In this document: in pieces, positions 33,601-63,134 of the stretch
Position numbering within the stretch: position 1 is the stretch's first letter
Layout: the number at the start of each line of letters is the position of its first letter
Assembly: GCA_949126835.1 (NCBI GenBank)
Contig: OX421500.1
Location: 28,313,991-28,377,990, forward strand
Length of the DNA stretch: 64,000 bases
Source: Anisus vortex
Lineage: Eukaryota > Mollusca > Gastropoda > Planorbidae
Direction: 5' to 3'
Notes under the pieces: model-generated
Seen by the model: only the letters and a program-made list of their open reading frames with translations
Told to the model about the DNA's origin: nothing
The model's database searches: none
Position numbers and translations under genes: made by a program

Positions 33601-33875
33601 CCGATACGATACGGTATTTTTCCTTTTTAATCGTAAGAAAATAAAACTAATCATAAACAAAGCGTCCTAAGATGTCCACAGTAAATATAGGAGAGAATAA
33701 CCACTGTCCATTAGAACATATTAGATAATATAAATACATTAACGTGTCTTCTTCTTCTATAATATCAACGTGCTGTTGGCTGAATAAAACATTAAGTCTA
33801 ATTTTTGTACAATTTACATATCTAAAATATAACATCCCTACATCTATCCAACTTTCTCTTTCTCTCTATCTTTAT

Positions 33876-33924
<49 letters not shown>

Positions 33925-36900
33925 TATATTATATGTATAATACTTTGTTATGTGCTTAGTTCCAAAATAGTTTACATTCAAGAAATCGCTACTCAAGTTT
34001 GGAATCAACAGTTTGCTCAGATAACATTGAAGTACTATAAAGTAATTTTCCCGCCCGGTCCCTTTGTCCTATTGGCACCACTGCTTTGGATCTGCAGGAC
34101 AACAGATTTACAAAAACCGTTTGGTGAGTTGCAAGCACAATTATACATAAGTAGCAGTTTCTCTTATCCAGCCAAGGTTGGGTTACTGCAATAGCTGCCT
34201 GTGGGGTTTGCCCCAGAACCAGCTGCAGAGATTACAGAGAAGCACGTATTGTTTCGGGGGTGAGGAGTCAAGATCATATGTCCCCAACACTAAATGATCT
34301 CCACTGGCTCCCGGTGATATGTTGTACCGGACAATGTGCTAAGATATAGGACTGTCCAGTTTAGAACGGGACACCTGACAGCCCTTGCTATGTTGGTACT
34401 ATGCTTGAATATTTCATTCTGAGGACGTATGCAAAGATATTTTTTTTTAAATGTAAAACTTTTAGCCAATATATTCATGATTTTATCCAGAACGCTATTA
34501 AAAAAGGCAAATTTTAGAAATGGTATTCAATACCGTTTTGAAAAAAAGATATTTTTGGAAGAATATTACATACCATTGAAAGAAAAAGATAATTTTAGAA
34601 TTTCTTTAAATGATATCATATGCGATTTAAATTAAAAGATGATTGTGTAATTACGATATTAGAAATTAATAAAGCTAATTAATGAGCTAATCCAATCATA
34701 TATTCATTTAGAGCAAGAGTTCCCACCAGAAGTGTTTAAGAAACTACATGTTGTAGAGAGCAATATTCGTTACAAGTTTATCAGGACAAAGAAATTAGAC
34801 ATTGAGCCGTAAGTTACCAATTTGTATGTGCAAATGTTATGTAACTGTTAAATAAATCAAAATATTTTAAAATATCATTTATTTAAAGTTTATACTTAAT
34901 TTACTTATATAAAATAAAACGACTTAAATAAACCAAGCTTTACAAGCAATATCTTTTGTTTTACTCTTAGTACTGTCGATGATATAATGTGATACGTTTC
35001 TTTAATATATAACTGCAACAAAATGTCCACTTCTTGTTACTATAAAATAGTATTATCTGCTTTATATGTGGTAATAATAATACCAATTTTCTTATATAAA
35101 GGTTTTAATAATGTCATGTATATTGTTTTTCCAAGAATTGGAACACGCAATGTTTATTCTCCTCTCTCTCTCTTTTCTTACTACACGCGATATTAGGACG
35201 TTTAGTAGGAAAACGAAAGGTTCTAGGTAATGCTGGGATTCTGTGTTGATCTCAAATTCTCAGAGTCTGGGAACGACTCATTATTTAATAGGGGAAGTTC
35301 CTATCGTTTTTGTTATGAGTTTTGTAATGATACCATGATTTTCACCCCTACTGGTAATGGGTCTATCCCTTGCACCACTCGGATAGTATTTAATGATTTG
35401 TTTTGTCTGAAAGACAGAGAGTTTCAAAATATGTTCCTTTGAACGTTTGTGTTTGCACTATTTTATTCTAACTGTACATAATAGATATATTGTATATATT
35501 GAACATACCACCTGAAATAAACTATCAACAACAGTTACACTGAAGCTTCTTTGTCAAGTTACTATCCTATTGTGTTGTATACATTACTATAAGATTTATC
35601 TACTACCATAATTTACAAGAAAGGAAATGTTGGAATACAAATACTGAATTTGTGCCCAGGACTATAAGAAGAGTTCGTGTAATACTGAAACATAAATACT
35701 AATAATTAAAGTCTCCCCTAGGACTAACGAGAATTATCAGCAAGATCTACACAGCTCTGGCCACAAGGGGATTGTGGACGTAACAAAATTTGGGGGCTCG
35801 TCCGGGATATTTTTCCTGACCTAGGATTGACAAGATTTGGTAGTCTCGTTCGGTAGATTTGAGTTCTACTTTTCTTGATCTAGGATTGGAAAAAATGTGT
35901 TGATCTCGTCTGGAGAATTTGAGTTATATTTTTTCCTGACCTATAAATATTTTGTGACATTAGTAGTACTGAGAGCGGCATATTTGTGTTTCGTTTTCAG
36001 GACTGTGAAACTATTTTTTTTAAAAAGAGGAGAGAACTGGTTTGCGTTTTTATTCCTTGGGAAGTGTGAAGATTCCACGAAGTGTTTAATATTATATTGT
36101 GCAAATTTCTGGACAAATCGTAAGTTGGAACTTTATATTTTATTATACAATATATACTACTCTACTATAACAAATATTTCGAACGCTATACTATGGCTTC
36201 GAATATATCAAGTGAGGAACTTAATGCCATGTCATTTGCTGAACTAAAAGAATTAGCTGAGTCCTTTGGGATTGAGGCAGGACAGGCAAGACCTAATCGT
36301 AATCGTTTGACCAAAGAAATTATGACATGTTTGAACGGGCAGAATGCCATGAACACTGGTAGTGTAGTTGAAGTGGGACAGAACGATATCAATGAAGGTT
36401 ATGTAGCTCCCAGTGGGGGCGAGGTAATTGCCCACGGAGACGAGGTAAGAAATATGTCATCTAGATCATCAAACAATGATGAAGATGAAGGGTTGAGTGA
36501 AAACCTAAAATTCCAATTAGCTATGAAGAGAATGGAATTGGAAAGAATGAGGATAGAAACTGAAAGAGAAAATGAAAGAATTAGGATAGAAACTGAAAGG
36601 GAAAATGAAAGAATTAGGATAGAAACTGAAAGGGAAAATGAAAGAATTAGGATTGAAAGCAGAGAAAGGATAGAGATGGCACGCATGAACAGACCTGACC
36701 ATCGTAGGGACAGCAATGGTATGGATATTAGCGCAATGAAGCAACACTTGCCTATATTCAGAGAAGAAGATGTTCAAGATTTCTTTTTGCTTTTTGAGAG
36801 GATAGCTGTAGATTATCAGTTCCCTGATGATAAGATGGCTTTATTGTTAAGGTCAACTCTCAACAAAGGAAAAGCATTGGACGTAGTGTTGAGTTTAACA

Positions 36901-39900
36901 CCCGAGGAAATAAATGACTATGAAGTAATCAAAGATAGGGTGCTAAAAAGTTATTCCCTGACACCAGAAAAATATAGAAAGCTATTTAGAGACAGAAAGA
37001 AGGCATATGATCAAACTCATGTAGACTTTTTGAGACAAAAGGAGAAAATGTTAGAACAGTGGCTAAGGTCACAGAATGTAAGTGAGTTTGATAAACTCAA
37101 GAACCTAATATTGTTTGAGGAATTCAATGATTGTATTCGAGTGGATATTAAAACCCACATCTCAGACCGAGGGGTTGAAGATGTGCATGAAGCTGCTAGA
37201 TTGGCAGATAACTATGCCATAATTCACGCCAGCATAAAGCCATATTATGCTGACAACTCCAAAGTGCACAAACCAGAGCCCAAGGAGGCTAGTAAACCAA
37301 AAGAGACAAGTGAAAACAATAATAAGAACAGTGGTGTAAATAATAATAGTAACTTAGTTCATTTCAGGAAGCAGACAGATGTAAATAAAGCAAAGGTGGT
37401 ATGTTTCAATTGCAAGAAAGAGGGCCACATGAAGAAAGATTGTTGGATCCTTACCAAGAAGCAAGGTGCTATTCTACACTGTGCCAGAGTGCAGAAAGAT
37501 AGCAAGCAGACAGAAGAAGTGTGCAACACAGGGTCAAGAAACTCAAAAGAAATGCGGCCGGCATCGCCCATAGTTGTGGAGTCGATGGTTTTTGAGAACA
37601 GTCTATCTAAGGTAAAAGAGAATAGCTGTACTCAATCTATTATGCTTTCAGAAGGCCGTGAGGAACAGATGGTTCCTGAAGTCCCGGAAGAGGACGACCT
37701 ATCCGATTTTCGACCCTTTGTCTACGAGGGGACAGTGTCGACAGAAGTCGATGTACTCAGCAAGAAGAAAATACAGATATTACGTGACACGGGTTCTGCT
37801 GTCAGCGTGATCCTGGAGGGCAGTGTGCCGTTAACGGATGCCACCAGTACCGGTGAGTCTGTTGTGCTGAGAGGTGCTAGTATGGAGGCTGTGGAAGCTC
37901 CACTGCACAGAATAAAACTCGAGTCGGATATTTTTACAGGTAACATCGTAGTGGGAGTGTGGCGCGCACTACCCGTCAAAGGCGTTTCCATGATATTAGG
38001 AAATGACATTATGGGCGGCAGAGTCACTGTCGAGCCCATGGTTAAAGTGTTGGAGACAAAGATGGCGGAGGACAAAAACCTACGTCCTGCCAATGAACGC
38101 CCAACATGTGCACTGACAAGAGCAATGCATAAAAAAAAGTCGGTAAAGACTCCTGCTACGCCGTGTAGTGCAACGAAAGATGTGTTTGTCTGTTCTGAAG
38201 ACACACATGCGAATGAAACAGTGATAACAGAAACACCTGACATCGATTTAAGTGCTACGTTCTTTGCTGAACTAACAACTGGTGATGCAACCGAGAACGA
38301 TAACATTTTGTCACCAAAGCAGAAATTGGTGAAAGAACAATTGAATGACGAAGTAATAATGCAACTCAGAATGAAAGCTGTTGATGAAAAGACTGCAGAT
38401 GCAATGGCGGAATGTTTCTACATGAAAGATGAAGTGTTGATGAGAAAGTCGAAACCGCTCAACTCAGGTACAAACGAGTGGGACAGTATTCACCAGATTG
38501 TAATACCTAAGTGCTATCGTCAAGATATACTGCGTATGGCGCATGATCTTCCTTTCGCTGGTCACATGGGAGTCCGAAAAACGCACCACCGTATCCTCCC
38601 TTACTTCTACTGGCCAGGACTGAGAAGAGATGTCGAACAATACTGCAAGACTTGCCACGTATGCCTAATGGTAGGACGTCCTAACCAACGAATTCCTGTC
38701 GCTCCACTCCAGCCGATACCAGCGTTCGACGAACCATTCAGTCGTATACTCATTGATTGCGTGGGCCCGTTGCCGAAAACAAAAGCCGGTTTTTAATACC
38801 TGCTCACAGTCATGTGTTCATCCACTCGCTTCCCGGAAGCCATTCCGTTGCGGAACATAACAACAGTGAAGGTGGTAGACGCCCTGACAAATTTCTTCAC
38901 ACGTTATGGCCTACCGAAGACAGTACAGTCCGACCAGGGGACTAACTTTACTTCGAACATTTTCAAACAAGTCATGGAACAATTAGGGATAAGCCATAGG
39001 CTATCAAGTGCCTATCATCCTGAGAGCCAGGGAGCTCTGGAAAGGTTTCATCAGACATTAAAATCGATGCTTAAAAAGTACTGTTATGAAAACGAGAAAG
39101 ACTGGGATAAGGGTGTGCCTTATGTACTGTTCGCTGCAAGGGAGGCCACTCAGGAATCCCTGGGGTTTAGCCCATTCGAACTTGTGTATGGACACTCAGT
39201 CAGAGGTCCGTTGAAACTTCTACATGAAACTTGGCTAACGGACAGTGAACCGATTGGACTTTTGTCATATGTAGATAAATTTAAAAATATGCTTTATCAT
39301 GCTTTTAACCATGTGAAGATTCATTTTCCACAGATGCAGGAGCGTATGAGACAGAACTATGACCGTAAAGCTACAGCTAGAACTTTTGCACCAGGTGACA
39401 AAGTTCTTGTGTTTCTACCTTTGCAAAATCAGCCTTTAAGTGCAAAGTTTAGTGGACCCTATGAGATAGAGTCAAAGCTTGGCGAGGTCAATTATTTGAT
39501 AAAGACTCCTGACCGGAGACAAAAGCAGAGGGTATGCCATATTAATTTACTTAAGCCCTATGTTTCCAGGGAAAAGAGTAAACCACGGGAGGTCCCCATG
39601 ATTTCGTTAGCTAGAGTCCCGACGGATTTATCTAGGATAGAATATAAGTTAGCAGAAAGTAAACTTAATAATACAGATGCCCTTAAGAGTTTAGATACAA
39701 GGCTAGAACATCCTCCGGTAGAAGATAAGGAGAAGATTATTGAGCTGGTGCATGAAAATAAGTCAATGTTTACAAATGTTCCCAGTAGGACACATGTCAT
39801 AGAGCACGATGTAGTGTTAACCGATAGTGCCAGGTCTATTAAACAGCATCCATTTGACCCCATCAGACCTGAGCATATTAAATTAGATGTAAAGTATATG

Positions 39901-42900
39901 TTAGAAAATGACATAGGAGGAAAATGTGATAGCAAATGGTCTACACCCTGTGTGATGGTACCAAAAGCCGACCACACACTGCAGTTTTATAGAGACTTTG
40001 GGAAATTAAGTAATTTGACAGAGACCGACTGGTATCCCATTTCCCGTATCATCGACAAGATAGAGACAAGGTCATAGCTGATAATCTATCTCGGGTGCTA
40101 CATGATTGACTGAATAACCCTATACTTCTTTTTCAGATCATCTCACTTATTCATTAAGAATGTGTCATGATAACCTATCATTCGTTTGAATTTTGATTAT
40201 GGAATACCTATAGAATACTTGTATCATACAGAAGTCAAGTCTTTTGAAAGTATTAATAATTCTTATAATCATGTATAATATTGATGTTCTGATATATTTT
40301 AAATTCATTTGATTATGGAAAAGAAATTCCATTTAAATGTTGATGCATGATGCAATAAATATATAATATGCACGTATTTACTTGATATGGATGGATAAAA
40401 GTAATTGTCATCACATGCAATTAAGTGGGAAAACTTTGAGATAGTTGATTTATTATCTTGTTTTATTTTAGTTAATGAATGGAACTAAATAATAATATGT
40501 ACAATTTTTATCTTAGAAAGAGATGTAATCTTAATTGGTATAAATTAATAGATAATATTGGAAATCTATTGCTAAATTGTTATATCATGGTAATAGAATG
40601 GGAAAAACTAGTGGATATTCACTATGTTGTATAGGTTGTTATATATTCCATATATCCGGGAATGGAGGGAAACAAAGGTACCTAAAGTTGTGCACTCATT
40701 CAACCCTGAACAATCTTTTATATTAAACTTTTAAATTTGCCAAAAACGCATAATAGTGGATTACATTTTAATATTTAGATTACTGTAGTAATCGTAACTA
40801 GAGTGTATTTTCTCCTCGTATTTGAGAAAAGGGGAAGTATCATCATCTTAGGTATGAACCCTGTTAATGTCAAGTTGACACTGTAATTTAAAGGGGAAGT
40901 AACCTATAGTTTGATTCGAGTTATGTATTACTTATCTTTTGGTTTGTATATTAGAAGTAAACTGTTGGAAATTGACAAGAGTTTGAGCAATGTTATATTT
41001 GTTTAAATAGATTAAGACTTTTTGCAAATTTTTGGTGGAAATCCACACAACTGTACATAGTTAAAATAAGAATGACTAGAATATTTTTGAATTATTTGTA
41101 CTTGTTGAGACATTAGTTAATATTAATACTAACGGTGAAATATTTGTCCATCACGTTATAATCACAATTACCATTGGGTAGTGACACTTTTTATAATTTA
41201 GTTGTGCCAGTGAGCCATGTTTGCTTAAATTGTCTAATAATCTTCCATTGATTGTTGGTTATTAAAACGATAGTGTTAAGTACGAAAAATGTACCATGTT
41301 GAGTATTACTTGGGTAATTATGGTACATTATTTCTTTCATTGGGTGGGGGCGTGTCATGTATATTGTTTTTCCAAGAATTGGAACACGCAATGTTTATTC
41401 TCCTCTCTCTCTCTTTTCTTACTACACGCGATATTAGGACGTTTAGTAGGAAAACGAAAGGTTCTAGGTAATGCTGGGATTCTGTGTTGATCTCAAATTC
41501 TCAGAGTCTGGGAACGACTCATTATTTAATAGGGGAAGTTCCTATCGTTTTTGTTATGAGTTTTGTAATGATACCATGATTTTCACCCCTACTGGTAATG
41601 GGTCTATCCCTTGCACCACTCGGATAGTATTTAATGATTTGTTTTGTCTGAAAGACAGAGAGTTTCAAAATATGTTCCTTTGAACGTTTGTGTTTGCACT
41701 ATTTTATTCTAACTGTACATAATAGATATATTGTATATATTGAACATACCACCTGAAATAAACTATCAACAACAGTTACACTGAAGCTTCTTTGTCAAGT
41801 TACTATCCTATTGTGTTGTATACATTACTATAAGATTTATCTACTACCATAATTTACAAGAAAGGAAATGTTGGAATACAAATACTGAATTTGTGCCCAG
41901 GACTATAAGAAGAGTTCGTGTAATACTGAAACATAAATACTAATAATTAAAGTCTCCCCTAGGACTAACGAGAATTATCAGCAAGATCTACACAGCTCTG
42001 GCCACAAGGGGATTGTGGACGTAACAATAAGAAATTTCCTGAAATAAAATCATGATTTTAACAATTATTTTAATAACAATTATTTTTTTTAGGAATGTCG
42101 TCTGTAATGGAGCTATAATCTGTAGACACAAAGGTACAAAAAATAAGTAAAATAATAGTAACAAGCATAACATTTACATAAAAAACACAATAAAATATAA
42201 TTTAAAAAAACGAGAAAAAAGAAGCTGCCAATTCTCGTGACAGGGATGGTGTTGCCAACAGGGTGCACAAATTCTAGTGCGCCCACTCAAAGCGTGAAAT
42301 CTCCGGGCTGTGGTGCTGTCCCAATGGACTTTTTATACCTGCCAAACACTAATGGCTTAATGGTCTATAAAGAATGATAGCAGAACTTGACATTTGTGCG
42401 CTATTTTACTCGTTGTACGATATATATATATTATGGAAAAGCAGCTTATTTTCTATAAAACTTCGAGCCCACACATAAATAGGAAAATAATACACAACAA
42501 GGCTTTGTGTGTGTATATATATATATATATAGACGCAAAATGTCTCAGTTTATTGTATTGATAAAATATAATTACTTCAATGGTGTTTCTATATTTACGT
42601 TTTTCACAGTGTCCTATCATAAGATATAATTATGATATCACAATAGAGTAGTCTCTCTGGCGATTATCTCAGAGTTCTTTATAGAATGTGCATCTGTTGC
42701 TCGGCAAGGAACCATTACCATGTAAACATACAAAATAATATAAAATAAAGCACAAAAATATTTTTTAGTCACATTAAGAACACAAGCGATATATTATGCA
42801 GAACGGTAGTGGAAGTCCAGAATGTGTCAATGTGTTTTTACAGACTAAAAGTTCCATGCGTGTCTCAATAGTATAGATGTCTTAGTCTGATACCCCTATA

Positions 42901-44213: not shown

Positions 44214-47200
44214 TAGATAGACAGATGTATAGATAGAGAGTTGCTTTGATGTTCCCGCGATCGAATCACAATAAGTATTTTCGTCTTAATTATCCCCGCG
44301 GTCTTGAAAAGTAACATAGGAAAAATAGATCCGACTAGCTAGAGTTTCGGCCACACTTTTACAACTTGGCAAATAGAATGCATAAGGTATTAAAATAGAA
44401 TAGTTTACCTTCATTACACTTTATTATTATGGGGCACAAAATTGTGTTCGGCTGGCATACAAAAGATCCTGGTTTTGAAACCTAGGGAAAGCCAAGTTTT
44501 ATTTTTCCAGTCTGTAGGGTGTTCCCGAATCTACCCAAATCTGATGGGTACCTGGCGTTAGTTGGATAAAAAGAAAAAAATTAGGCGGCTGGATGGTGAT
44601 ACCAATAGATCATTTCAATCCGTCTGTAATACTTAACTATACACTCATGTATTTATTTAATTAGTAGCATGGAGATATAAAGTCATTGTTCTCTAATCGT
44701 AAATAATTAAGATATCCTTTATTATCTATAAATTTATAGATAAAGTTACATACACGGAATCGACACAAACAGGTAAGCCTTACTTTTTTACACTTTAAAA
44801 TAATCTTCAGCCTGTACAAACTAAATTTTAGATAATCGTAGAACTTCAATAATTTTTGCTAATATAATGGATGCAAAATATTTTTTTTAAGTTATATTTT
44901 CTTAAGTTCTTAGATTAACGATTAGTTCACAGAGTTAATTACTTTGTATACTATTGTTTCATGTTTGGATTTTAAAAAAAAACATAATAATTATTTTCAG
45001 ATTTGTTTCAAGATAAAAAAGAGCAAGCAGGTAGTCTATAATTAAAACAAAAAAATCATTTTCCATAAATTTGTGCATGTAGTAGCCCACGCACATACAT
45101 TCTTAACTGATAAACGGATATAACTTATAATGGTAATTAGTTTAGGGCTTACACTTGATTTAGCGAGTTTCGACTCCTTGAGCTTAAATCTTAAATTAAA
45201 TTGTTGTTTTTTTAAAACAGAAATGGACGATGGTTTTGTGGCTTCACAGGAAACTCAATTTCGTAAGTACCTTGGATATTTAGATAAGATAAGATAAGAT
45301 TGCTTTATTGATCCCAATAAATGGAAAATTGACTTGATTACACACTTGAAATTAAATCCCTACTTTTGCTTTTAAGCTCAAATGGTTTGTGAAATTTATT
45401 GCTAACCTCGTGGAAAAAAAAAACACTGCATCGAGAATTTGAATTTAAGTGAGTTAAAGAAAATGTAGTATTCTAGACAAAAAATAGGAAGTATTGAAAG
45501 TCAAGTAAATGTGAAGTCAGATAGAACATGTGACATTTTAATGCTAGAAAATAGTATTAACATATTTTAAAGGATATAAATACTTTGAAAAAAATCATTG
45601 TAGTATTTCATTTAACATAAATATGCCTACAGATTTGCAGTTTTTGTTTCATAAAAAAATGCGTTGCCTTTATACATTTAATATAGCCTCTAAAAAAAAA
45701 GTAGTAAGCTAATACAATGCTGAGAAAGACACTGTGAATTTAAATACCCGGTTGTAAAATGTTTGTAAATTTACTTACCAGCGGAGAGAACGACGACTGA
45801 TGTTCAAACTGACACGTGTAAGTCAATGTTTGTCAATGTGTGTCAATTTTTGTCTATGTTGTCAATCTTTGTCAATGTTTGTCTTTGTTTGTCAATGTTT
45901 GTCTTTGTTTGTCTATGTTTGTCAGTGTTTGTCAAAGTTTGTCAATGATTGTTTATGTTTATAACTTTTTGTCAATATTTGTCAATGTTTATAAATTTGT
46001 ATCAATGTTTGTCAATGTTTGTCAATGTTTGTGAATAATTGACTTGTAACTTTGGCTTTTCAACATTTTATATAACGCTTCTTTACTTTATTATATAAGA
46101 ACATATATTTTTAATATGTCTATGTACCGAGCTGTAATCTGTAATAGACAATTCTTAAATATTATGCAAGCATGGTGAACCTAAATTTTAAACCTGTACC
46201 AATATTCCCAGTCCTATTCGTTCATTTTGCACAAAACATGTATCTATATGTGCTGCGCTACTAGTTGTACTGTGAATGAGAAAAGATACAGGGAATTAAA
46301 TTTTATTTCATTTTTTAAAGAAAATGGATGGATTGTGAACGTCAGACGTGAAGAATCACTTTTTTTTATTCCTTAACTTCTTTGTTTGATGCAAAAGAAT
46401 GTTTGTTTTGTGTTTTTATGTATCTACGGATTGTATTTTTTTGTATAAATCAAGACACACTACTCTTTACTAATCGTTTTACACTTCGAGTATTAATTAT
46501 CCCACACTTTTTTTATGTTTAAAAACAGTTTTCTCATAACAAACATTGTAGCCTATGTATATTTCTAAAAGACCAGAAATGGCCGTATAGGTTGAAATAA
46601 ATTGTCAAACATTCGCAAATGCATGTGTTTTTTTTTTGTTGTTGCCAGAAATGAACCGGAAATTTCTGAACACGTTTTACCACGATTTATTGAAAAGGAC
46701 AGGCATCATTAAGACTTGTCAATTGCAACCAAGTTTTGTATAATACAAAATGAAAAAAAAAAGTAGTAGCCTGAACTGTATATTTTATGTATATTGTTAC
46801 ATATTAATAGCGCCCAGAGCTCTCTCTCAACGCGAGTTTTGTGGATGTACTAGGTTTTGGACCATTTCATTCTATAGTTGTCAATTTGGTATACTTTAGT
46901 GACGACTGCGAAATTCTAGAAATCCACTCTTGTACCGTCTGCAAATTCTAGGAATAGTTAGGAATTGTTTATTATTTTACGTACAGTGGAGTTTGTGTTA
47001 GAACTATCGTTTTTATTATGAGTTTTGTAAATGGTACCAACATTTGTATCCCTCTCATAATAGATCTGTTCCCCGCTCTTCCCGTTAGTATTTAAGGCGT
47101 TTCGCGTAGTCTTTCTAGGCAGTTAGCTAGATAATTACTCTTGATTCTGTTAGTTGACGCTTGTGTGCTCTGTTTCACTGTTAGGGTATATAATGATTCT

Positions 47201-50200
47201 GTTGTATATACTTACAAGTATTAGAAATAAATATTTTCCTAATTTAACCATTTACACTGAAGCTTCTGAGTCAAGTTACTATTTTAGTATTTACAATACC
47301 CTATATGTATCTACAACTACCACGTCAAGGAAGGAATTGGCATACAGCTAATCCTGAGTTTGTTCCCTGGATAATAAGGAGTACGCATAAAACTGAAGTA
47401 TAAATAATATTAACTAAAGTCTACCTCAGGACGAACGAGGATTAACAACAACATTTACGCTACTCAGACCACTAGGGGATTGTGGTCGTAACAATATGTA
47501 GTTACACCAGTCCTTTATGGAATGTCTCGATGAGTTATTTTAACTAACTATATTGTGTTGTTCTAAGACTGAAATTACAACGTCTAAGTTACATTTACAA
47601 AAACGTATATAAAGCCCACCATTTCATAAATGACTGTTACAATACCACGAGAAACACATAAGATGATTGATGGGCCATCTCTATCAAGTTATATGGACAA
47701 CTAATTAACAATACAATAATATGTTTAAAAAAATCAGCGCGTCGGGCATGTAATAGACTCTTACCAATAGGAGCATGATCTAAGGTTTAAAAACAGATAA
47801 ATGTCCCTTTCACACGTGTTCACGGGGGAGATAAGAAGAAAAAAGCCTGGCTGGGACATAGGAGTTATCTCCTACGTACACAAGATTGTGTTTGTAAATA
47901 TAGTATGTATATGAAAGGACGATGATGTAGTTTCTTGAGTCTCTGTCCTTTGCTTTTGTCATGGCACTTCTATTTGCTTTTATCGCTGTCGAAAAATGAT
48001 TTTTTTGTTCGTTTGCCTTGTCGCATAGTTATTTATCAGATATTAAGAAGACTTAATTAGTTGCATGTGAACATAATATTAACTTATTATTACGTTTGTT
48101 ACGGTAAACAAATGCATAACAAATTATTAATTATCGTACACAGATTATCTCCTAAACAAAGAAACACAGAAGGATGCTAGTAAGTTTTGGACTTTTATAA
48201 AATTAGTTTTAAATTTATATCTTTGTTCTGGTAACAATATATTTACACATTGTTATTAATCTTACACATTCTAACCAGATCATCGCCCATATAAAGATAC
48301 CCAAGAGACTACAAGTACTAGTAAGTTTTGGACTATGAGCTTTACCTTTCATTAACTTTTTTATATTGTTCATAATACAATACTTTAGTTGAATTTTGTT
48401 TTTATTTCATTGACAGCTTTTGTAAGCAGATTTAAAAGCAAGAAGGTTCAAAAAGGTGACAAAACTCTTCTCTATATATCAAAATATTTTAATACCTTAA
48501 GCACATTAAGTCTTATAAAAAATGCAGATATTGTTTACAAATATATCGATTTTAGTATTCATCAACTTTGACGAGTCGATGTTTTTAAAAAGTAAAAAAT
48601 AAATCATTGATATCTGATACAAAAATGAATGTATAGTTTAAAAATCAATTTTGTTGTTGATGAGGCTACAGTTGGATACTTCCTTTTAAGAATGGACTTA
48701 TGGCCTTACATAGATTAGATCTATGTTTTTTTTATATTTAAATGTTGACTTCGAATATTAACTTTAAAAAAACAACAACAGTAAAAGAAATTATATTTTT
48801 GATAAAAAAAACTAGATGTGTAAAGCATATGTCTTTTAGTTTTGTGCTTCTCAAACGTTAAGTTTCAGGGACCAGCAAGCCTTGTTCATTTAGATAACAA
48901 AACGGTGTCCACTTTGTTGTTTTTCTTCTTTTTTTTTTACATTTAATGATAGTAGTTATAAGTATTTGTTACCATAGGGTATAATGTACTAGACTATTTG
49001 TTTGTCTTTTTCTAGTTTGTAAACGTATAAAAGAATAATTTATAAAATGTCTTGTACCTTTTTAAATTTACGTGAGAGTGTTTGAAGCAGTGCTTACTTT
49101 TACAAAGTTCACAAATTTAGCAACGGCTACAATACAATTTTAAACACGTAAATGCGTTTTGACATTACATTAGGGCTATTACAATGATCTGTTTTCAATG
49201 TAAAGTTGACAGAGCGTTATGTTATTTATGCGAAAGTTCAGTCTATTTAGCAATCAGCGATTTAATTATGAACACTGACACCCACACAGTACTGTATCTC
49301 TATTGTGTCTTAGTAAAGCTCATTATTGATCAGCCAGTCTCGTAACAGTTTGACGTGAGAAGAGCTCTCATATGAAATGAATGTATTTTTTATGATCCTA
49401 TTTTATATCAAAATATTAGTGTTGCAATTTCTATACAACCGTTTACTACTTACTATTTAATTTAGATTCCGATAATAATTTCTTTTGTATATTAGTTTAA
49501 TATTATTATTTTGATTGTTATATTTTGTTTAAATTGTCCTGATTTTTCAATTTACTTGACTTAAGTAACACTCAATTAAGTGAAGAAAAAAAAAAGTATA
49601 TAGATATTATATTTTAACCTTTTATTTTTTTTTTATTAGGTCGACCTAAACGTATTGACAAAATGTTACAAACAGGTATGTTAACAGTACATTAATTTGA
49701 TTGTTTCATTAAAAAAAAAAGTAATTTTAATGTAAAAAAATGTAAAATAATTAAATATGTTGTTTTTTTTTCTTTTAAATTATGATGTAGATCTAATAAA
49801 TTTTTTTTTTTATGTGTGTTAGATGGTGTCATTCAAGTTGACAAAAAAATCCTTACTGGTGAGAAAATACCATTATACTGAATATAATAATTTATAAAAA
49901 TATTATTAAAACATAAATATGTATATACTATGATTTCTTTGTCAAATTAAAAACATTATATTTAGTCACTATACCAAGTTGTTCTATAATTGTACACAAT
50001 AGTCAGATAGATACATTAAATTATTTCTTTGAGGTAAAAGATAAATGAAAATAATGTGTTTAACATACAGATAAAATCGAGCATCCAGCAAAGGAAGTTC
50101 AAACAGGTTGGTTCTTTAATTTTTATGCTAGTAAATTTTGTAATTTGTATTACGTCTAAATAATCAAATATAAACTAAAAAATAATTTGCAAATTATATG

Positions 50201-51140
50201 TTGATTCATAATTTATTATAGACAACAAAACAAAATTGACGTAAAAAATCCCAGAGCTAAAGGTACATTTTCCCCTTACCTATCCGTCAACCCCATTTTT
50301 TTACTGTCTGAAAACATCGCGCAGACAGACTTGTCCTTTCAGAGCAAATAATGTGCATTTCAATAGACATTATTTTTGTCATCCTGACAACATTTCTTCT
50401 TTTTTTCCCCACTTAAGTTATTCAATGTAATTGTAAACTGGTATCAGTGGTAGGCCTATAACCAGATATAGATTATTTCTAGCGGATGCATATAGTAGTA
50501 TATAATTGTTTATGAATGTAACTAAATGTCCTCTAATTTTTACCATGTTGGTTCTTAGAGTTAATGCTTTAGCGTTAAAACAACCACTTTGCCAAAATGC
50601 TTATTTTTACAACTAATGTCAGTTATAGAAGTGGAAATCAGACACGCCATAAATACCTGACATAAAAAAATGGCAAGTAAAACTAATATATTTGGGAATG
50701 ATAGTGCACACGAGGTGATGTCACCGTACATAAATGCAAACGAAACAAGACATTTCAACTTCTGAAAGGTAGCCAAGAAACACAATAAAATTGATGAGAA
50801 TACAATCAAGGAATGCCTAACAAAATCTTAAATCGCAACTTATTGTTCATTTTCACAGAACCTGGTGTATCTGTTTCTACACAGAAAGATAAACGTAAGT
50901 TGAGAAAAGAAAATAAGAAATCGAAATGATTAAATAACAAATGGCATTATATCTAGCAGTACTATTATCTGTCATGATAGATTATATTTGTGTAGCTACT
51001 TGCTAAAGCTGCTAAATCACGTTAAAAAAAAAAGTTTGCCCGATTGTCTTGAAGAATAATAGGCCTTTGTTGTTATTAATATGCTCATTGTCTTCAAGAA
51101 TATTATGTTGTTATTAATATGCTCAACGTTAACTCAATTA

Positions 51141-51208
<68 letters not shown>

Positions 51209-54184: not shown

Positions 54185-54760
54185 AGTAGAGCAGGATAAT
54201 ATAACGTGCATATGTAAGAACTGTATGACTTAGTAATTTACAACAAACCCTTTTTTTAAATACACAATATACTATTTTGTTATTACTGTATAGTAATAAC
54301 TATAATAATGACTGTTTCACTTTTGTAGTAAGCCCATGAGAGCAAGCACGTATGTGCACAGTTTTAACGTGAATCTAAACATAAATTTAATAACACAAGC
54401 ATTATCCAATTAAACGTTATAACGTTCATTGTCGTTCAAAAAAAAAATCAAGTTATCATAGACTGGAGCATAGTATAAAGATACACTAGAAATAGAGACG
54501 ATTGGTCTATTAAATATATAATTGGATAGTTTAAAAGCTAAATAAATAATACAAAAAAAAAACCTTTGACATGTTGAATTGTGTAACCTTATTGAGGTCA
54601 TTTCACGTTTGGTAGAATGATGTACAAAATTAATGTTCATCCTTTTTAATTAATGCTATAATTTAACTTCTTTGTTCTGTGGATGTTTTTACTTTTTTTA
54701 TTTAAATGTTTTTATAGCTTTGATCTTTAAAACAAATGTGTTTGTATTATAGTACATTAA

Positions 54761-54779
54761 AATAAATGTTATAAATAAA
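54761..54779 (+). terminator. Candidate polyadenylation signals
   Basis: Two AATAAA hexamers about 580-595 bases after the stop codon. AT-rich context makes chance occurrence likely, so this is tentative. Confidence 0.3.
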
Positions 54780-54799
54780 ATGATATTAGAAAAATGTTA

Positions 54800-56273
54800 T
54801 TAGTAGTTAATCATAAGCTGGTGAGTGTTTGTTTCGAGCTCCCAAAATTGTACTTTAAGGTTTTATTGAGATTTTGTTGTTGTAAATATTGATAATAAAC
54901 AAATTTAAAGCTAGTAAAACACATTTATTTACCAAGCATGAACAAGTTCGAAACGAGGCCCGTATTTTATTATATATCTTATAGTCCCCGTGTTAACTTC
55001 ATTATATAATTATATATCTTAGAGGTAATACAATTTTTTTTATAGAATGTAGTGATTAGTAATATATACGTATGTACACTGTGTTATTAACATGCATTAA
55101 TGGATGTATTTATAAACATTTGTAGTTAAAGTTCTCCGTATGTTCTGATTTTGTAAAATATTTTTTATATGAATATTTTAATCAAACTTGCCTTATAATT
55201 CCTTATTTTGATTAATTTTGATAATTTTTATACTTTTCTCACATTAATATTATTTTGTTTTACAAATATTTACACTCGTTCTTTTTACTTTTGGCAAATA
55301 GTTGTGTTGATTTAATAAAAATTTTAAGAATAAACCGTTTTCTCAACTATCAATTTAATATGTAAACTTATCATCACTTTGATAACATTATATATAAAGT
55401 ATAAACATGCATTAGAGAATCGAAAGAATTAGATCTACAGTGTTACAGTTACAAGCTGAAATTTATAAAAACCTAAAACGTACATTAAATTTTGTAAAAA
55501 AAAATTAAGCTTTCTGTTAGATCTTACAACGATCACAAAATTAATCTCAACATTTGTGATTTAAGGTCGTAATGTCATTTTCATTTACCGTAACTCCTCA
55601 AACAAATATCCCGTCTTGTATTTAATAACACAAGGAATACCGCGGTTCTTTTATTATATAAACATATTTATATACATATATATATTTATTTATTTATTTG
55701 TTTTAGAATTATACTTACTCGATTAAACAATAATTTTGTTTGTATCTGGTGTCTTTTACACTTGTATTGTGTGTTCTAGTGGTTAAACTTAAAACGAAAT
55801 AAAAGAAGATAACGAGCTAGTTTTGATGGTGAACTATATTTGCGTAGCTGATTCATTTGAATGAGAATTGAAAATGCGTGCTCTATGCCTTATATAATAG
55901 TATGTATTTTCTGTTTCATCTATATTTATATGAGTTGCCTACATTCAGGACGAAATTTAAATGTATAATTTGGATAAGTACCTTTTATTTTATAAACTAT
56001 ATTGTTTAATGCGTTAATTTTTTTCTAAAAATAACGTTTACATAATAATATGACTGACAGTTATAAACTGGAGTGCCATTTAAAAATATAGAGTGATGTC
56101 CCTTTCAAAACGCTTTCAAATTATGTTTATTTTTGCACTGGGTTTACCAGTACTGCGAAATATTATTATCAACTTTGTTTATTATTTACTTTTTTATAAT
56201 TTGGTATTTCTGTGATTTTTTTTTCTTCTTGATATAATTATTGTTAGTTTAATATTATTAATAAGAAGTCCAA
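54800..56273. other. AT-rich intergenic sequence, nothing recognised
   Basis: Short TA/TTTA runs near 55675-55695; no frame or repeat of note. Confidence 0.45.
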
Positions 56274-59503: not shown

Positions 59504-59850
59504 TTAGTTTGCGGTAATCAGTACAAAGCGGGTTGATTTATCTGCTTTTGGAACTATGACACATGGTGAACTCCAATCGCTACAGCTTTGGCAGATGATA
59601 TCATTATCTAACATGTATTGGATCTCTTTCTGAATAATAGCTAACTGGTTAGGGTTAACTCTATACGGGTGTGGTTTTATGGGAGAAATATTCTCATTCA
59701 AAATGACATCATGTTCTATCAAGTGTGTTTTAGTAGGAACATCATTGAATAACATAGGGTATTCTAGAATAATGGACTTGATGACATTGCTCTCTGACAT
59801 TTTTAAATGTTTAAGTTTTTCATCAATGTTCTCAAGCACAGTAGATTTTT
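59504..59850 (-). pseudogene. Retrotransposon 3 reverse transcriptase, N-terminal remnant
   Basis: Contains T-H-L-I-E-H-D-V-I-L, then W-S-S-P-C-V-I-V-P-K-A-D. A frameshift then follows, with a D-Y-R-K-L-N block in another frame at about 59517-59480 before the sequence becomes noncoding. It lies directly downstream of integrase, in a different frame from it after an indel near 59845. Palm and RNase H are missing. Confidence 0.85.
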
Positions 59851-60729
59851 TAGTTTACACCCACTAAATCTATGGTCAATTTCACAGTGTTGTTCGTCAG
59901 ACTCAACAACAATAGGTGACATGGGGAGAGTTGGAGGGGAATGTTTACCTTCTACCGTTTCCCTACCCACATAAGGTTTGATCATGTTGTTGACCTCACT
60001 GACCTTTGAATCTACTTCGTATGGACCGAAGTCAGAAAGGGGGTGAGTGTTGGTGGGGAGAAATAACAACACTTTTTCCCCTGGCGCAAATGTGCGAACT
60101 CGTGATTTTTTATCAAAAACAGTTTTCATTTTGCGCTGGTCTTGTTTTAAATTGTCCCTAGCAAATACAAAAGAATTGAACAAACGATTTTTAAACTTAT
60201 CTACACAGTCAATGAGTCCTCTTTTCTCGGTTTGTTCATCTGTCCAGGCTTCTTTAAGCAGTTTTAATAGACCTCTGACGGTGTGTCCAAAAACCAACTC
60301 GAATTGACTAAAGTCCAGGGACTCTTGTATCGCTTCACGGGCAGCAAAGAGCACATATGGCACTCCTTTGACCCAATCCTTCTGATGGTCATGGCAATAA
60401 GTTTTTAACATTGTCTTTAATGTTTGGTGGAAACGCTCTAGCGCTCCCTGGAAGTCGATGATAATATGCGAGAAAGGTTCGCCAAAAGCAGGGATGGGCT
60501 GTAGTGGCGCAACTGGTACTGTCTTGTTCAGCTTTCCAATGAGTTGACATGATTCGCACGATTTACAGTAGGCGGTGACGTAACGTTTCAACCCAGGCTA
60601 ATAAAAGTGGGACAATATACGTTGATATGTTTTGTTTATCCCCAAATGACCCGAAAAGGGCGATTCATGCGCTACCTCAATAATATCCTCTCGGTACCTC
60701 ACCGGAACCACAATTTGCTCCACCATTCT
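59803..60729 (-). pseudogene. Retrotransposon 3 integrase, two nonsense codons and core deletion
   Basis: In phase with the frame upstream but separated by a TGA at 60730-60732 and a TAG near 60599, both at positions where the related element has Trp (G-to-A changes). The His/Cys domain is recognisable (H-E-S-P-F-S-G-H, C-K-S-C). After the first catalytic Asp the core jumps straight to Q-G-A-L-E-R-F, losing roughly 90 residues and the second Asp. The C-terminal G-P-Y module and K-P-Y block follow. Confidence 0.85.
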
Positions 60730-62400
60730 TCAGTTATCCTCCGGCGCAGCATCCCGAGGTCTCCAACTCCTCATCAGCATTCCACCACGTACACAATATT
60801 GCACAGGGCCATCTCTGACGTCAGACTCAGCCACAACACTCTCACGCAGCTTTTCCAGCTCTGTATCTTTCTGTTGTTCTTGGATTAGTTGCTGCCTGGG
60901 AGATAACTTATCTCCTCCGCTGTCTACAGGTGGTTCTACCAACCTGGAAAAGAAGGTAGCTTCCAAGTCGATTTCGCTCCGAGTATTGTCATTTTCGGCT
61001 GGTCCTCCAGGCGCCTTGTCCCTATTGTCTTGTTGATTCATGCCTCGGGTGATAGCATAAATAGGGTACAGTTCAGTATCTTCTACTTCTGTATTGTTGA
61101 CTTTAGGATTATGAGTCACAATCAGTTCAGGCTTTACACAGCCTTTTGCTAAGTCATTTCCAATTATGACAGAGATTCCGTCAATTGGAAGTGTAGGTTT
61201 ATCTCCTACAATCACTGGACCGGAAATAAGTTCGGTAAGATGAATGCGTTGAAGCGGAATTTCCACGTGTCGCATCTCAGTGTCTTTGATTAGTACCTTT
61301 TGTCCAGCATATGTTTGTTCATAGAGTGATAATTTACCCTCTAGACTCAGGGACATAGTTTCACCGGTATCTTTTAGGATTTTAACTGGTTTTTGTAGCT
61401 TAGTTTTATCTTCAGATGTAAATGGCGAAAATTCGTCAAGAGTTGAAGTTTCTATCTTCTTTTCAAATGAAGTTTCTATCTTCTTTTCAAATGAAGTTTC
61501 TATCTTCTTTTCAGCACACTGGTTTACCTTACCAGGTTCTACCTTTGTAGTGATTTCTCTATTATCTGAGATCGATATGTAGCCTTTAGATATAAAAGGT
61601 GACAATTCTTTAATTGAAGAACTTTCTAAGTTATTTTTCTTTCCTTCATCAGCACACAGGATATCCTTGACCGTTTCTACCTTTGTAGTAGGTGGACGAC
61701 AGTAGGCTTTCATCACGTGTTCTATTTGCTGTGAATCTTTTGTGTCGCCTTTAGTTATATAAGGTGACAATTCTTTTATTGGAGAACTTTCTGAGTTATT
61801 TTTCTTTCTTTCATCAGCACACTGGATAACCTTGACCGTTTCTACCTTTGTAGTAAATTGACGACAGTAGGCTCCCATCACGTGTTCTATTTGCTGTGAA
61901 TCTTTTATGTCGCCTTTAGATATATAAGGTGACAATTCTTTCATTGGTGAACTTTCTGATTTACCTTCCTTTCCTTCATCAGCACACTGGATAACCTTGC
62001 ACGTTTCTACCTTTGTAGTAGGTTGACGACAGTAGGCTCCCATTACTTGTTCTGTTTGCTGTGAATCTTTTCTTTTTTCCATAAACCAACAGTCCTCTAG
62101 TGTGTGACCTAGTTTATCACAGTTCTTACACACAGGCTTTGGCTTTGGCTGACCTTCAATCATATCATAAGCTCCCATTTTATTTTCTGAGTGCTTTGAA
62201 ACTTTCTTTTTCAGAAAGCAACAGTCTTTTCGTGCGTGACCGATTTTATTACAAATTTGACACGCAGGCTGTAGTGTTATACTTTCACCTATCTCAGAAG
62301 CTCCGATTTCTTTGTTTGGTTTTTTTAAACCTTTCTTGTTTGTTAACCAACAGTCTCCTCGTGCGTGACCTACTTTTATACAATGTTGACACACGTTTTG
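60730..62400 (-). CDS. Retrotransposon 3 nucleocapsid-protease frame with repeated modules
   Basis: About 554 codons, open from a GTG near 62394, so likely entered by a frame change from gag rather than its own start. Three CCHC knuckles (nt about 62391-62350, 62263-62220, 62131-62090) replace the single one of the other elements. Then come about three tandem modules of 60-66 residues (D-S-Q-Q-x-E-x-V-M-x-A-Y-C-R ... C-A-D-E) and a short K-K-I-E-T-S-F-E repeat. Protease D-T-G starts at 61371, with I-I-G-N-D-L downstream. The integrase zinc domain is approached before the stop. Confidence 0.85.
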   Translation of the reverse strand, partial: QNVCQHCIKVGHARGDCWLTNKKGLKKPNKEIGASEIGESITLQPACQICNKIGHARKDCCFLKKKVSKHSENKMGAYDMIEGQPKPKPVCKNCDKLGHTLEDCWFMEKRKDSQQTEQVMGAYCRQPTTKVETCKVIQCADEGKEGKSESSPMKELSPYISKGDIKDSQQIEHVMGAYCRQFTTKVETVKVIQCADERKKNNSESSPIKELSPYITKGDTKDSQQIEHVMKAYCRPPTTKVETVKDILCADEGKKNNLESSSIKELSPFISKGYISISDNREITTKVEPGKVNQCAEKKIETSFEKKIETSFEKKIETSTLDEFSPFTSEDKTKLQKPVKILKDTGETMSLSLEGKLSLYEQTYAGQKVLIKDTEMRHVEIPLQRIHLTELISGPVIVGDKPTLPIDGISVIIGNDLAKGCVKPELIVTHNPKVNNTEVEDTELYPIYAITRGMNQQDNRDKAPGGPAENDNTRSEIDLEATFFSRLVEPPVDSGGDKLSPRQQLIQEQQKDTELEKLRESVVAESDVRDGPVQYCVRGGMLMRSWRPRDAAPEDN

Positions 62401-62410
62401 TTGAGATGTC

Positions 62411-62962
62411 TCAGTGAGTTTTTTTCTGCTGGGTATTTAGGTCGTCGGCGTTCTCTACTGTGGGTTTTCTAAACATCTTTCCATGACTTTTTGGTACCGA
62501 TTCGTATCTTCTAATGATGGCTTCTTTGCTATATTGGTAATTATCAAACTCTTCGTCTTTCAATAAACTTATGACCTCTCGTGCTTTGCGGTTAGCGACT
62601 TTAGTGAGTGCTTGTCTGACGAGTACAGCCCATTTTTCTTTTGGGAACGGAAAGTGTGTGGCTACTCTTTCAAAACTGTCAAAATACTGGTCAACAGGTT
62701 CATTTTCATTGAATTTGGGAACGTATTTTATGTACCTGAAAAGATCATTTATTTGAGTCTGTTTAGTAATAGCTTCTTGTTTTATCTGTTGTGACATTTT
62801 TATCTCTTTAGCCAGTTTGGCTAATCTTTCTTCCATTTCTATTGCTAGTTTTTCTTTTTCCCTTGCGGTTTCCATTGCTAGTTTTTCTTTTTCCATTGCA
62901 GTTTCCATTGCTAGTTTTTCTTTTTCCATTGCTAGTTTTTCTTTTTTCCTTGCAGTTTCCAT
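62411..62962 (-). CDS. Retrotransposon 3 Gag fragment
   Basis: 183 codons. A repetitive K/E-rich helix (E-K-L-A-M-E-T-A units, 62962-62800) is followed by the first part of the SCAN-like capsid (F-x-x-F-E-R-V-A, W-A-V-L-V-R-Q-A). The C-terminal half of the capsid is absent. The N-terminal domain is cut off by a stop near 63000; an ATG lies at about 63062. The frame closes just after a run of seven A (62425-62419). Confidence 0.8.
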   Translation of the reverse strand: METARKKEKLAMEKEKLAMETAMEKEKLAMETAREKEKLAIEMEERLAKLAKEIKMSQQIKQEAITKQTQINDLFRYIKYVPKFNENEPVDQYFDSFERVATHFPFPKEKWAVLVRQALTKVANRKAREVISLLKDEEFDNYQYSKEAIIRRYESVPKSHGKMFRKPTVENADDLNTQQKKTH

Positions 62963-63134
62963 TGCTAGTTTTGTAGCCTCTCCTTACTAGCTGATTATAT
63001 TTTAAATTTTGCTAGTTCAATCTTGGCTAACTCCAGTTGAATAATAATCGGTGACTCCATTATTATGTAATGTTAATGTTACTCACAGTTTTTCCAGACT
63101 ACTGCATCAACTGCTTTTTGGACGAGATCCCAAT

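Follow-up and report, generated by a model that had tools for sequence, protein, structure and literature searches.

We analyzed a 64,000-nucleotide stretch of the snail Anisus vortex (Gastropoda; Planorbidae; contig OX421500.1, positions 28,313,991 to 28,377,990), hereafter the window, and all coordinates below are positions within it. Its forward (+) strand carries a gene for a TRPM-type channel followed by an array of very short exons. As read from its sequence, this array probably encodes the channel's C-terminal tail, a multivalent strip on which LC8 (DYNLL), the dynein light chain and a dimeric hub protein, would dock.

The channel gene and its microexon tail

The original prediction held that the gene ends in at least 13 internal exons of 30–42 bp, each in phase 1-1 with AG/GT borders, followed by a phase-1 terminal exon with a stop, and all of these elements were found as described. 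Re-reading positions 44600–55600, scanning for AG..GT segments in phase 1-1, and splicing the candidates gave 13 microexons within 44740–53827, with AG/GT borders, phase 1-1, and an open frame in all 13 (lengths in order: 33, 30, 42, 36, 36, 42, 39, 36, 36, 36, 36, 36, and 30 bp). Introns of 96–2326 bp separate them. The spliced frame reads ..LDIEPNVVCNGAIICRHK, then the 13 units from DKVTYTESTQT to TFTKEKGIQT in order, then VPDSLPVKKAVR and a stop. With phase 1 at both borders of each microexon, the frame is kept whichever of them are added or dropped, and any subset would leave it intact.

The prediction of a TRPM-like channel was borne out by comparison with solved structures. When the joined pore and tail were used as a phmmer query against PDB chains, the best match was the TRPM2 chanzyme (E 5e-28, query residues 11–280); 63 distinct sequences matched, and nearly all of the 60 listed have TRPM names or are TRPM fusions, one being an MKIAA1616 protein. 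Among the matches listed, the alignments stop before the microexon tail. The region from S1 to post-S6 is encoded by exons within 32276–34123, and by homology the channel is TRPM-type in its transmembrane and pore region. A search of 5.8 billion proteins with residues 1–520 of the model returned at least nine proteins at E ≤ 0.001 among the best 7994 candidates scored, the first seven of which are labelled Biomphalaria. The best among the matches listed, P0001, is a predicted Biomphalaria protein of 1239 residues named 'TRPM2-like isoform X5', a label that hints at several predicted isoforms, with 63% identity over 57% of the query. Upstream of the tail, P0001 and the final exon model are identical at 305 of 575 aligned residues (53%). 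A Pfam search of the read-through window DNA detected no N-terminal SLOG/TRPM domain and returned nothing useful; pieces of a putative N-terminal SLOG/TRPM homology region were found with P0001 as query (Table 1). One piece, 14184–14300, corresponds to a stretch of P0001 with a weak match to the SLOG-in-TRPM family (Pfam LSDAT_prok, P0001 residues 285–334, E 0.085). All 28 modelled exons are open with AG/GT borders (AG only for the last), and the 748 modelled codons contain no stop before the final one, although ~5% of single-base changes there would create one; divergence from P0001 therefore probably accrued mostly under selection.

Pore exons and array are also linked in frame, as had been proposed. 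Exon 34712–34808 exits in phase 2, exon 42093–42133 converts phase 2 to phase 1, and all microexons stay in phase 1; P0001 joins the same pieces, holding the pore, the junction ..QCNGRIICLHK|D.. (..VCNGAIICRHK|D.. in the window), and the array in one product. An end of the channel soon after 34808 or 42133, which would have undone the proposal, is contradicted by this comparison as far as sequence can tell: the predicted Biomphalaria protein continues past both equivalent positions into the array. After CNGRIICLHK, the P0001 tail runs DRKQCTAETQT ELNVKNNSLQT DDIYFSTTETQT SYHQDNETQT .. SINLTKKTQT EHKYFAVVKPPR; we cut it by hand into 17 units from the protein alone, so that exon borders played no part in the cutting.

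Table 1. Features of the channel gene and its microexon tail, listed by position in the window. Percentages are tblastn identities with P0001 as query.
Feature	Position	Strand	Sequence	Remarks
N-terminal exon segment	7834–7917	+		50% over 28 residues, E 0.011
N-terminal segment (weak match)	10382–10498	+		28% over 39 residues, E 0.16
N-terminal exon	14184–14300	+		64% over 39 residues, E 2e-10
N-terminal segment	20846–20914	+	GSGGNADALAEWLD	52% over 23 residues, E 0.12
TRPM homology region exons	24625–24746, 25898–26022, 26142–26270	+		AG/GT, compatible phases, P0001 match
TRPM homology region exons	26424–26511, 27835–27923, 28093–28193	+		AG/GT, compatible phases, P0001 match
Pre-S1 exon	29520–29592	+	SKAICWRCNIREVFSPFLLMIFRC	52% over 21 residues, E 0.054; phase 2 in, 0 out
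Exon S1–S2	32276–32407	+		
Exon S3–S4	32519–32764	+		
Exon S5–pore	33012–33192	+		
Exon S6	33295–33448	+		
Post-S6 exon	33960–34123	+		
Exon before insertion	34712–34808	+	EQEFPPEVFKKL..LDIEP	End phase 2
Long terminal repeat (LTR) retrotransposon-like insertion	35112–42027	+		Two identical 675-bp terminal repeats (35112, 41353); gag/pol-like frames by eye
Junction exon	42093–42133	+	NVVCNGAIICRHK	Phase 2 to 1; CNG..C.HK common with P0001
Microexon 1	44740–44772	+	DKVTYTESTQT(D)	Strict LC8-like anchor
Microexon 2	45001–45030	+	DLFQDKKEQA(E)	Without anchor; donor weak
Microexon 3	45221–45262	+	EMDDGFVASQETQF(P)	Relaxed anchor
Microexon 4	45782–45817	+	PERTTTDVQTDT(Y)	Strict anchor
Microexon 5	48144–48179	+	YYLLNKETQKDA(N)	Relaxed anchor with K at +1
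Microexon 6	48279–48320	+	NHRPYKDTQETTST(T)	Relaxed anchor with E at +1
Microexon 7	48417–48455	+	TFVSRFKSKKVQK(G)	Relaxed anchor with K at +1
Microexon 8	49640–49675	+	GRPKRIDKMLQT(D)	LQT anchor
Microexon 9	49823–49858	+	DGVIQVDKKILT(D)	Strict anchor of GIQVD class
Microexon 10	50071–50106	+	DKIEHPAKEVQT(E)	Strict anchor
Microexon 11	50859–50894	+	EPGVSVSTQKDK(P)	Relaxed anchor with K at +1
Microexon 12	52274–52309	+	PKLSIMDRRTQT(T)	Strict anchor
Microexon 13	53798–53827	+	TFTKEKGIQT(V)	Strict anchor; +2 is valine
Terminal exon	54147–54184	+	(V)PDSLPVKKAVR + stop	Phase 1; length and place match EHKYFAVVKPPR of P0001

Two splice filters were applied to ask how often such segments arise by chance. 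A consensus filter (pyrimidine tract, YAG, donor score ≥3, 27–48 bp, phase 1-1, open; both strands) passed 55 phase-1 segments in the window: 13 in the 9.2-kb array and 16 in the other 54.8 kb of the + strand, with 26 on the − strand. Twelve of the 13 array segments are microexons; 45001–45030 fails the donor cut. The motif [TVIL]Q[TVKEF] occurs in 12 of the 55 phase-1 segments, all 12 being microexons, versus 3 of the 122 segments found in phases other than this one, a phase-based control that is limited by nine microexons being open in phase 0 too, just as the control as a whole is limited by cut-offs and motif having been set after the microexons had been seen. A stricter splice position matrix, trained solely on 13 ordinary exons from the channel gene, passed 9 of the 13 microexons (the four that fail score low at the acceptor) and, at a score ≥8, gave 13 matches in the array, eight with the motif, compared with 7 elsewhere on the + strand and 11 on the − strand, 0 of these 18 with the motif. 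We reject chance microexons, as both filters concentrate motif-bearing segments in the array. A relaxed scan of 34.8–54.1 kb yielded seven further motif-bearing AG..GT/GC segments, none of which was taken into the array: three either extend unit 10 (50071) or lie within it, one extends unit 4 (45782), and the remaining three (42126, 42262, and 52698) have weak donors.

Microexons 5 and 6 (48144–48320) lie 99 bp apart, and their donors are spanned by a common 17-base string that has no third copy on the + strand of the window, suggesting a fairly recent local exon duplication; with 40-base flanks, the pair aligns with a score of 22 versus a maximum of 20 in 500 random pairs, and the next pair, 48279 and 48417, does not stand out. 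Between microexons 10 and 11, an AG..GT segment of ~41 bp (50223–50263) with a stop in phase 1, seen by eye, is possibly a decayed unit. The LTR-type insertion lies in the intron between exons 34712–34808 and 42093–42133 and is probably recent, because its terminal repeats are identical. A TTTGTCAATG simple repeat at 45829–46078 starts just after microexon 45782–45817 without overlapping it, and a diverged repeat of ~0.5 kb lies inside the array at 46281–46723 and 51444–51908, 5.2 kb apart, with 76–87% identity in matched pieces. We rejected transposable-element coding repeats as the source of the units, since the repeats inside the array do not overlap the microexons. Elsewhere in the window, which is AT-rich (27–42% GC in 4-kb steps), gag/pol-like open frames lie on the − strand at 17106–19836 and 59504–62983, as judged by eye from translations.

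LC8-type motifs in the tail

Papers are cited here by PubMed Central (PMC) accession and through extracts of their text. LC8, which has over 100 clients (PMC10046861), is a homodimer with two grooves, in which two chains lie next to each other in register (PMC5963919, PMC10046861, PMC12057147). Its natural motif is [D/S]-4 K-3 X-2 [T/V/I]-1 Q0 [T/V]+1 [D/E]+2, with GIQVD as the traditional second class (PMC3078936). The tail repeat matches the LC8 (DYNLL) motif [KR]x[TVI]Q[TV][DE], as in TESTQTD, TTDVQTD, AKEVQTE, DRRTQTT, and GVIQVD, and has features of LC8 clients at the sequence level: a [T/V/I]Q[T/V] anchor, the −3 and +2 flanks, and several motifs at a spacing compatible with dimers. The 'Q-T-like ending' originally ascribed to each repeat was too loose a description, for a relaxed anchor is found in 12 of the 13 window units, 45001–45030 having none, and the strict [TVI]Q[TV] anchor in 6 of 13; among the 17 hand-cut Biomphalaria units, 9 have the strict anchor. 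Motifs in the P0001 tail are cleaner than those in the window (AETQTE, NETQTP, and KKTQTE).

We compared these counts with shuffled tails. The 168-residue window tail contains 6 strict cores versus a shuffle mean of 0.87 (6 reached in 4 of 20000 shuffles) and the Biomphalaria tail 9 versus a mean of 1.53 (9 reached in 0 of 20000), with a single occurrence in the 1035-residue body of P0001. TQT alone occurs 8 times in the Biomphalaria tail, a count reached by 0 of 20000 shuffles. Anchors were picked as Q (or M) beside T/V/I/L/A with a listed +1 residue, a procedure that biases −1 and part of +1 and leaves −3 and +2 unbiased. The 12 window anchors have K/R at −3 in 7, T/V/I at −1 in 11, T/V at +1 in 7, and D/E at +2 in 7; for the 14 Biomphalaria anchors, the corresponding numbers are 5, 12, 12, and 7. 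D/S at −4 is found in 6 of 12 window anchors and only 3 of 14 Biomphalaria anchors. Median pitch is 12 residues in both tails, with steps of 6–24 in the window, where one anchor pair is merely 6 residues apart, and of 10–23 in Biomphalaria.

We also built a crude LC8 matrix from 20 published binder peptides. PMC6607443 supplied 16 of these in its tables and the myosin Va motif in its text; the other 3 come from PMC3078936, and 2 of those 3 are designed or consensus sequences. The threshold was the 10th percentile of binders. This matrix finds 6 sites in the window tail (shuffle mean 0.35) and 9 in the Biomphalaria tail (0.63), numbers that 0 of 1000 shuffles reached in either case, and none in the 1035-residue body of P0001. 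Elsewhere, it finds 4 sites in P0002, which holds a partial copy of the tail, 1 each in P0003, P0004, and P0006, and 0 in P0005 and P0007–P0009. In a charge-hydropathy comparison, both tails fall on the disorder side. The predicted local distance difference test score (pLDDT) of the P0002 tail is below 50, which says little because the whole structure model is poor (mean pLDDT 52).

Of 465 candidates in a search with the P0001 tail, P0001 itself and the partial P0002 were the sole matches, and a search with the window tail alone returned none at E ≤ 1 among 529 candidates, P0001 included. The Biomphalaria tail matched nothing in the PDB (best E 0.68), and a scan of viral contigs gave 7 pattern matches and no relative. 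P0003–P0005 have the CN..C.HK junction without the array, P0003 having a single SQT at its position (KDMASQTES). The Biomphalaria TRPM-like models P0004 and P0005 differ by a 28-residue insert in P0004 only, exactly at the CNG..HK junction; at the protein level, this insert fits a splice site that accepts cassettes.

Alternative explanations

Several observations count against LC8 docking. TQT alone is unremarkable in the window tail (2 occurrences, reached by 737 of 20000 shuffles), and the area under the curve of the matrix, for left-out binders versus 26 anchor-bearing non-binders of the 43 listed, is only 0.77. Only 6 of 13 window units have a strict anchor, 4 units have K or E at +1, and 2 of the 6 matrix sites in the window tail have K at +1; a charged group at +1 is highly unfavorable for LC8, a hydrophobic +2 is poorly accommodated, and many TQT peptides fail to bind (PMC6607443). 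Units 8 and 13 resemble published non-binders, the PLK1 (..KMLQTD..) and DAZL (..SIQTVV..) peptides (PMC6607443), and unit 13 has a hydrophobic +2 (valine). In ASCIZ, a third site showed negative cooperativity, and complexes were heterogeneous with a linker of 3 residues but not with linkers of 6 and 9 (PMC10046861). In the database searched, at the sensitivity given above, the tail was seen in Biomphalaria only. Finally, the window copy has no counterpart to 98 residues before S1, for which loss, misassembly, or decay are possible reasons. Multi-site clients do hold some low-scoring true LC8 sites, aided by their neighbors (PMC6607443). In our judgement, about six good LC8-type sites is a realistic count for the window copy.

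The missing block also bears on the idea that the window copy is a decaying or misassembled paralog, its array the remnant of a tail that still works in Biomphalaria, which we consider unlikely, though to be taken seriously, and which is compatible with LC8 docking. P0001 residues 577–674 are unmatched anywhere in the window (best local score 46; 43–50 for the shuffled query) and overlap the Pfam TRPM2-like domain of P0001 (residues 497–628, E 6e-13), the window anchors are poorer than those of Biomphalaria, and the gene contains a 6.9-kb insertion whose terminal repeats are identical. Against this idea stand the 28 of 28 open exons with their intact borders, the 305 of 575 residues identical to P0001, the matched pore, and the in-frame joining of exons 28093–28193 and 29520–29592, which flank the missing block. 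That the microexons belong to a transcript other than that of the channel is extremely improbable: their distance from the pore exons is ~10 kb, with the LTR-type insertion in between, but the phases are continuous and predicted P0001 combines pore, CNG..HK junction, and array in a single product.

Two further accounts concern what the repeats are for. A neutral disordered spacer, in which symmetric exons were duplicated and drifted and the Q-T pattern reflects shared descent only, would explain why unit order is so poorly conserved, as 116 of 2000 permutations of the units match or exceed the score of the actual order between window and Biomphalaria, a result that also fails to support one-to-one orthology of the units. 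Symmetric exons duplicate easily, and 48144 and 48279 still share their 17-base donor string. Outside the anchor, however, the units have diverged within and between the tails, yet −1, +1, and +2 are biased in both, and the 748 codons stayed free of stops before the last despite the ~5% of single-base changes that would make one; we therefore regard a neutral spacer as improbable. Were the motif the thing being kept, one would expect just this pattern, a persistent anchor with little conservation of unit order. The original prediction had also suggested a docking or phosphorylation tail, of which docking stands, with LC8/DYNLL the most likely partner, and phosphorylation fits less well. If the repeats were SQ/TQ-type kinase sites, with selection on T-Q pairs, T should precede Q, and T does precede Q (or M) in 6 of 12 window and 10 of 14 Biomphalaria anchors; ASCIZ, itself an LC8 client, was reportedly first described through its SQ/TQ cluster. 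In the other anchors, however, Q follows V, I, L, or A, none of which SQ/TQ-type kinases are known to take, whereas LC8 tolerates V and I. Enrichment extends to T/V at +1 and D/E at +2, and VQT, IQT, and IQV units are retained, making a phosphorylation tail quite improbable. A TRAF-type motif was rejected, as [PSAT] at −2 is found in only 2 of 12 window and 2 of 14 Biomphalaria anchors.

Proposed mechanism and known systems

A TRPM channel is a tetramer with four parallel tails. In the LC8 docking model, most microexons would add one LC8-type strand motif, giving approximately one site per microexon at a median pitch of 12 residues, and LC8 dimers would grip matching motifs of two adjacent tails in register to form one or two ladders per tetramer. 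Alternatively, the dimers could bridge adjacent channels into clusters. A ladder within one channel is proposed by analogy with the two chains of Nup159 and bridging by analogy with 53BP1 oligomers; in either arrangement, the channel might be stabilized, clustered, or gated, and the dynein motor need not be coupled to it. If the motif is 8 residues long, the 12-residue pitch leaves linkers of 4, just above the ASCIZ linker of 3 and below those of 6 and 9, and the pitch is close to the 11 residues between the starts of QT2 and QT3 in Drosophila ASCIZ (PMC5963919). The exon is the likely unit of valency, its gain or loss altering the number of rungs with the frame intact. Valency may thus have changed in evolution (13 units in the window versus 17 hand-cut units in Biomphalaria) and perhaps changes by alternative splicing too. 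Units could turn over freely in evolution if only anchor and pitch matter. A bolder version, which we offer tentatively and hold to be somewhat less than an even bet, is a splice-programmed ladder: cells would choose the number of microexons and so set how many LC8 dimers clamp the four TRPM tails or bridge channels, with clustering, stability, or gating tuned in steps, one rung at a time.

Each part of this model has precedents. As of 2018, a role for multiple sites had been characterized for ASCIZ and Nup159 only (PMC5963919). The LC8-binding domain of ASCIZ/ATMIN, like the snail tail, is a disordered C-terminal region with many short anchors, strong and weak sites mixed, and in human ASCIZ comprises 11 functional sites, then the most by far (PMC5963919); ASCIZ, however, is a transcription factor rather than a membrane channel, and the extract of PMC5963919 makes no mention of a layout with one motif per exon. 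The Nup159–Dyn2 ladder likewise has tandem LC8 sites, with five LC8 dimers on two chains (PMC5963919, PMC3995210), but Nup159 is a nucleoporin with five sites. Kir4.1 resembles the proposed snail complex in being a tetrameric channel with LC8 as an auxiliary on a disordered terminus (PMC11999606): LC8 copurifies at a stoichiometric level through a TQT motif, an LC8 dimer on two adjacent subunits accompanies loss of fourfold symmetry, and the interaction influences tetramer stability and lipid activation (PMC11999606). Kir4.1 differs in having a single, N-terminal motif. In myosin Va, alternative exon B is required for LC8 binding (2006 work cited in PMC3078936 and PMC3995210), a parallel in that an LC8 site depends on an alternative exon, though with one exon and one site. 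53BP1 has several sites, and LC8 bridges its oligomers into larger assemblies (PMC12187134); it is a trimeric DNA-repair protein with three sites. Schistosome micro-exon genes (MEGs) also have short exons (3–81 bp) amid long introns (PMC10526429), but encode secreted parasite proteins, whereas the snail array belongs to a TRPM-type channel tail with about one recognizable candidate binding motif per exon. Thus, the snail gene resembles MEGs in its array of very short exons and not in encoding a secreted schistosome protein, its best matches being snail proteins.

No published TRP channel with an LC8 array turned up in our searches of the open-licence literature, which omits most subscription journals, and the combination of multisite LC8 binding, channel, alternative exon, and microexon array was not found there among the matches listed; the extract of PMC7789530, on TRPM, says nothing of tails. 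Clients with multiple LC8 sites, a channel bound by LC8, an LC8 site dependent on an alternative exon, and arrays of microexons are each already known singly; it is their combination that appears new. With 12 candidate anchors in the window and 14 in Biomphalaria (6 and 9 strict), these tails would have about as many sites as human ASCIZ, and approximately one anchor per exon would make valency changeable without touching anything else. If the proposed docking is correct, the snail channel would be a natural system in which to test the effect of LC8 multivalency on membrane proteins; it would also tie microexon arrays, commonly regarded as devices for variability, to a defined partner.

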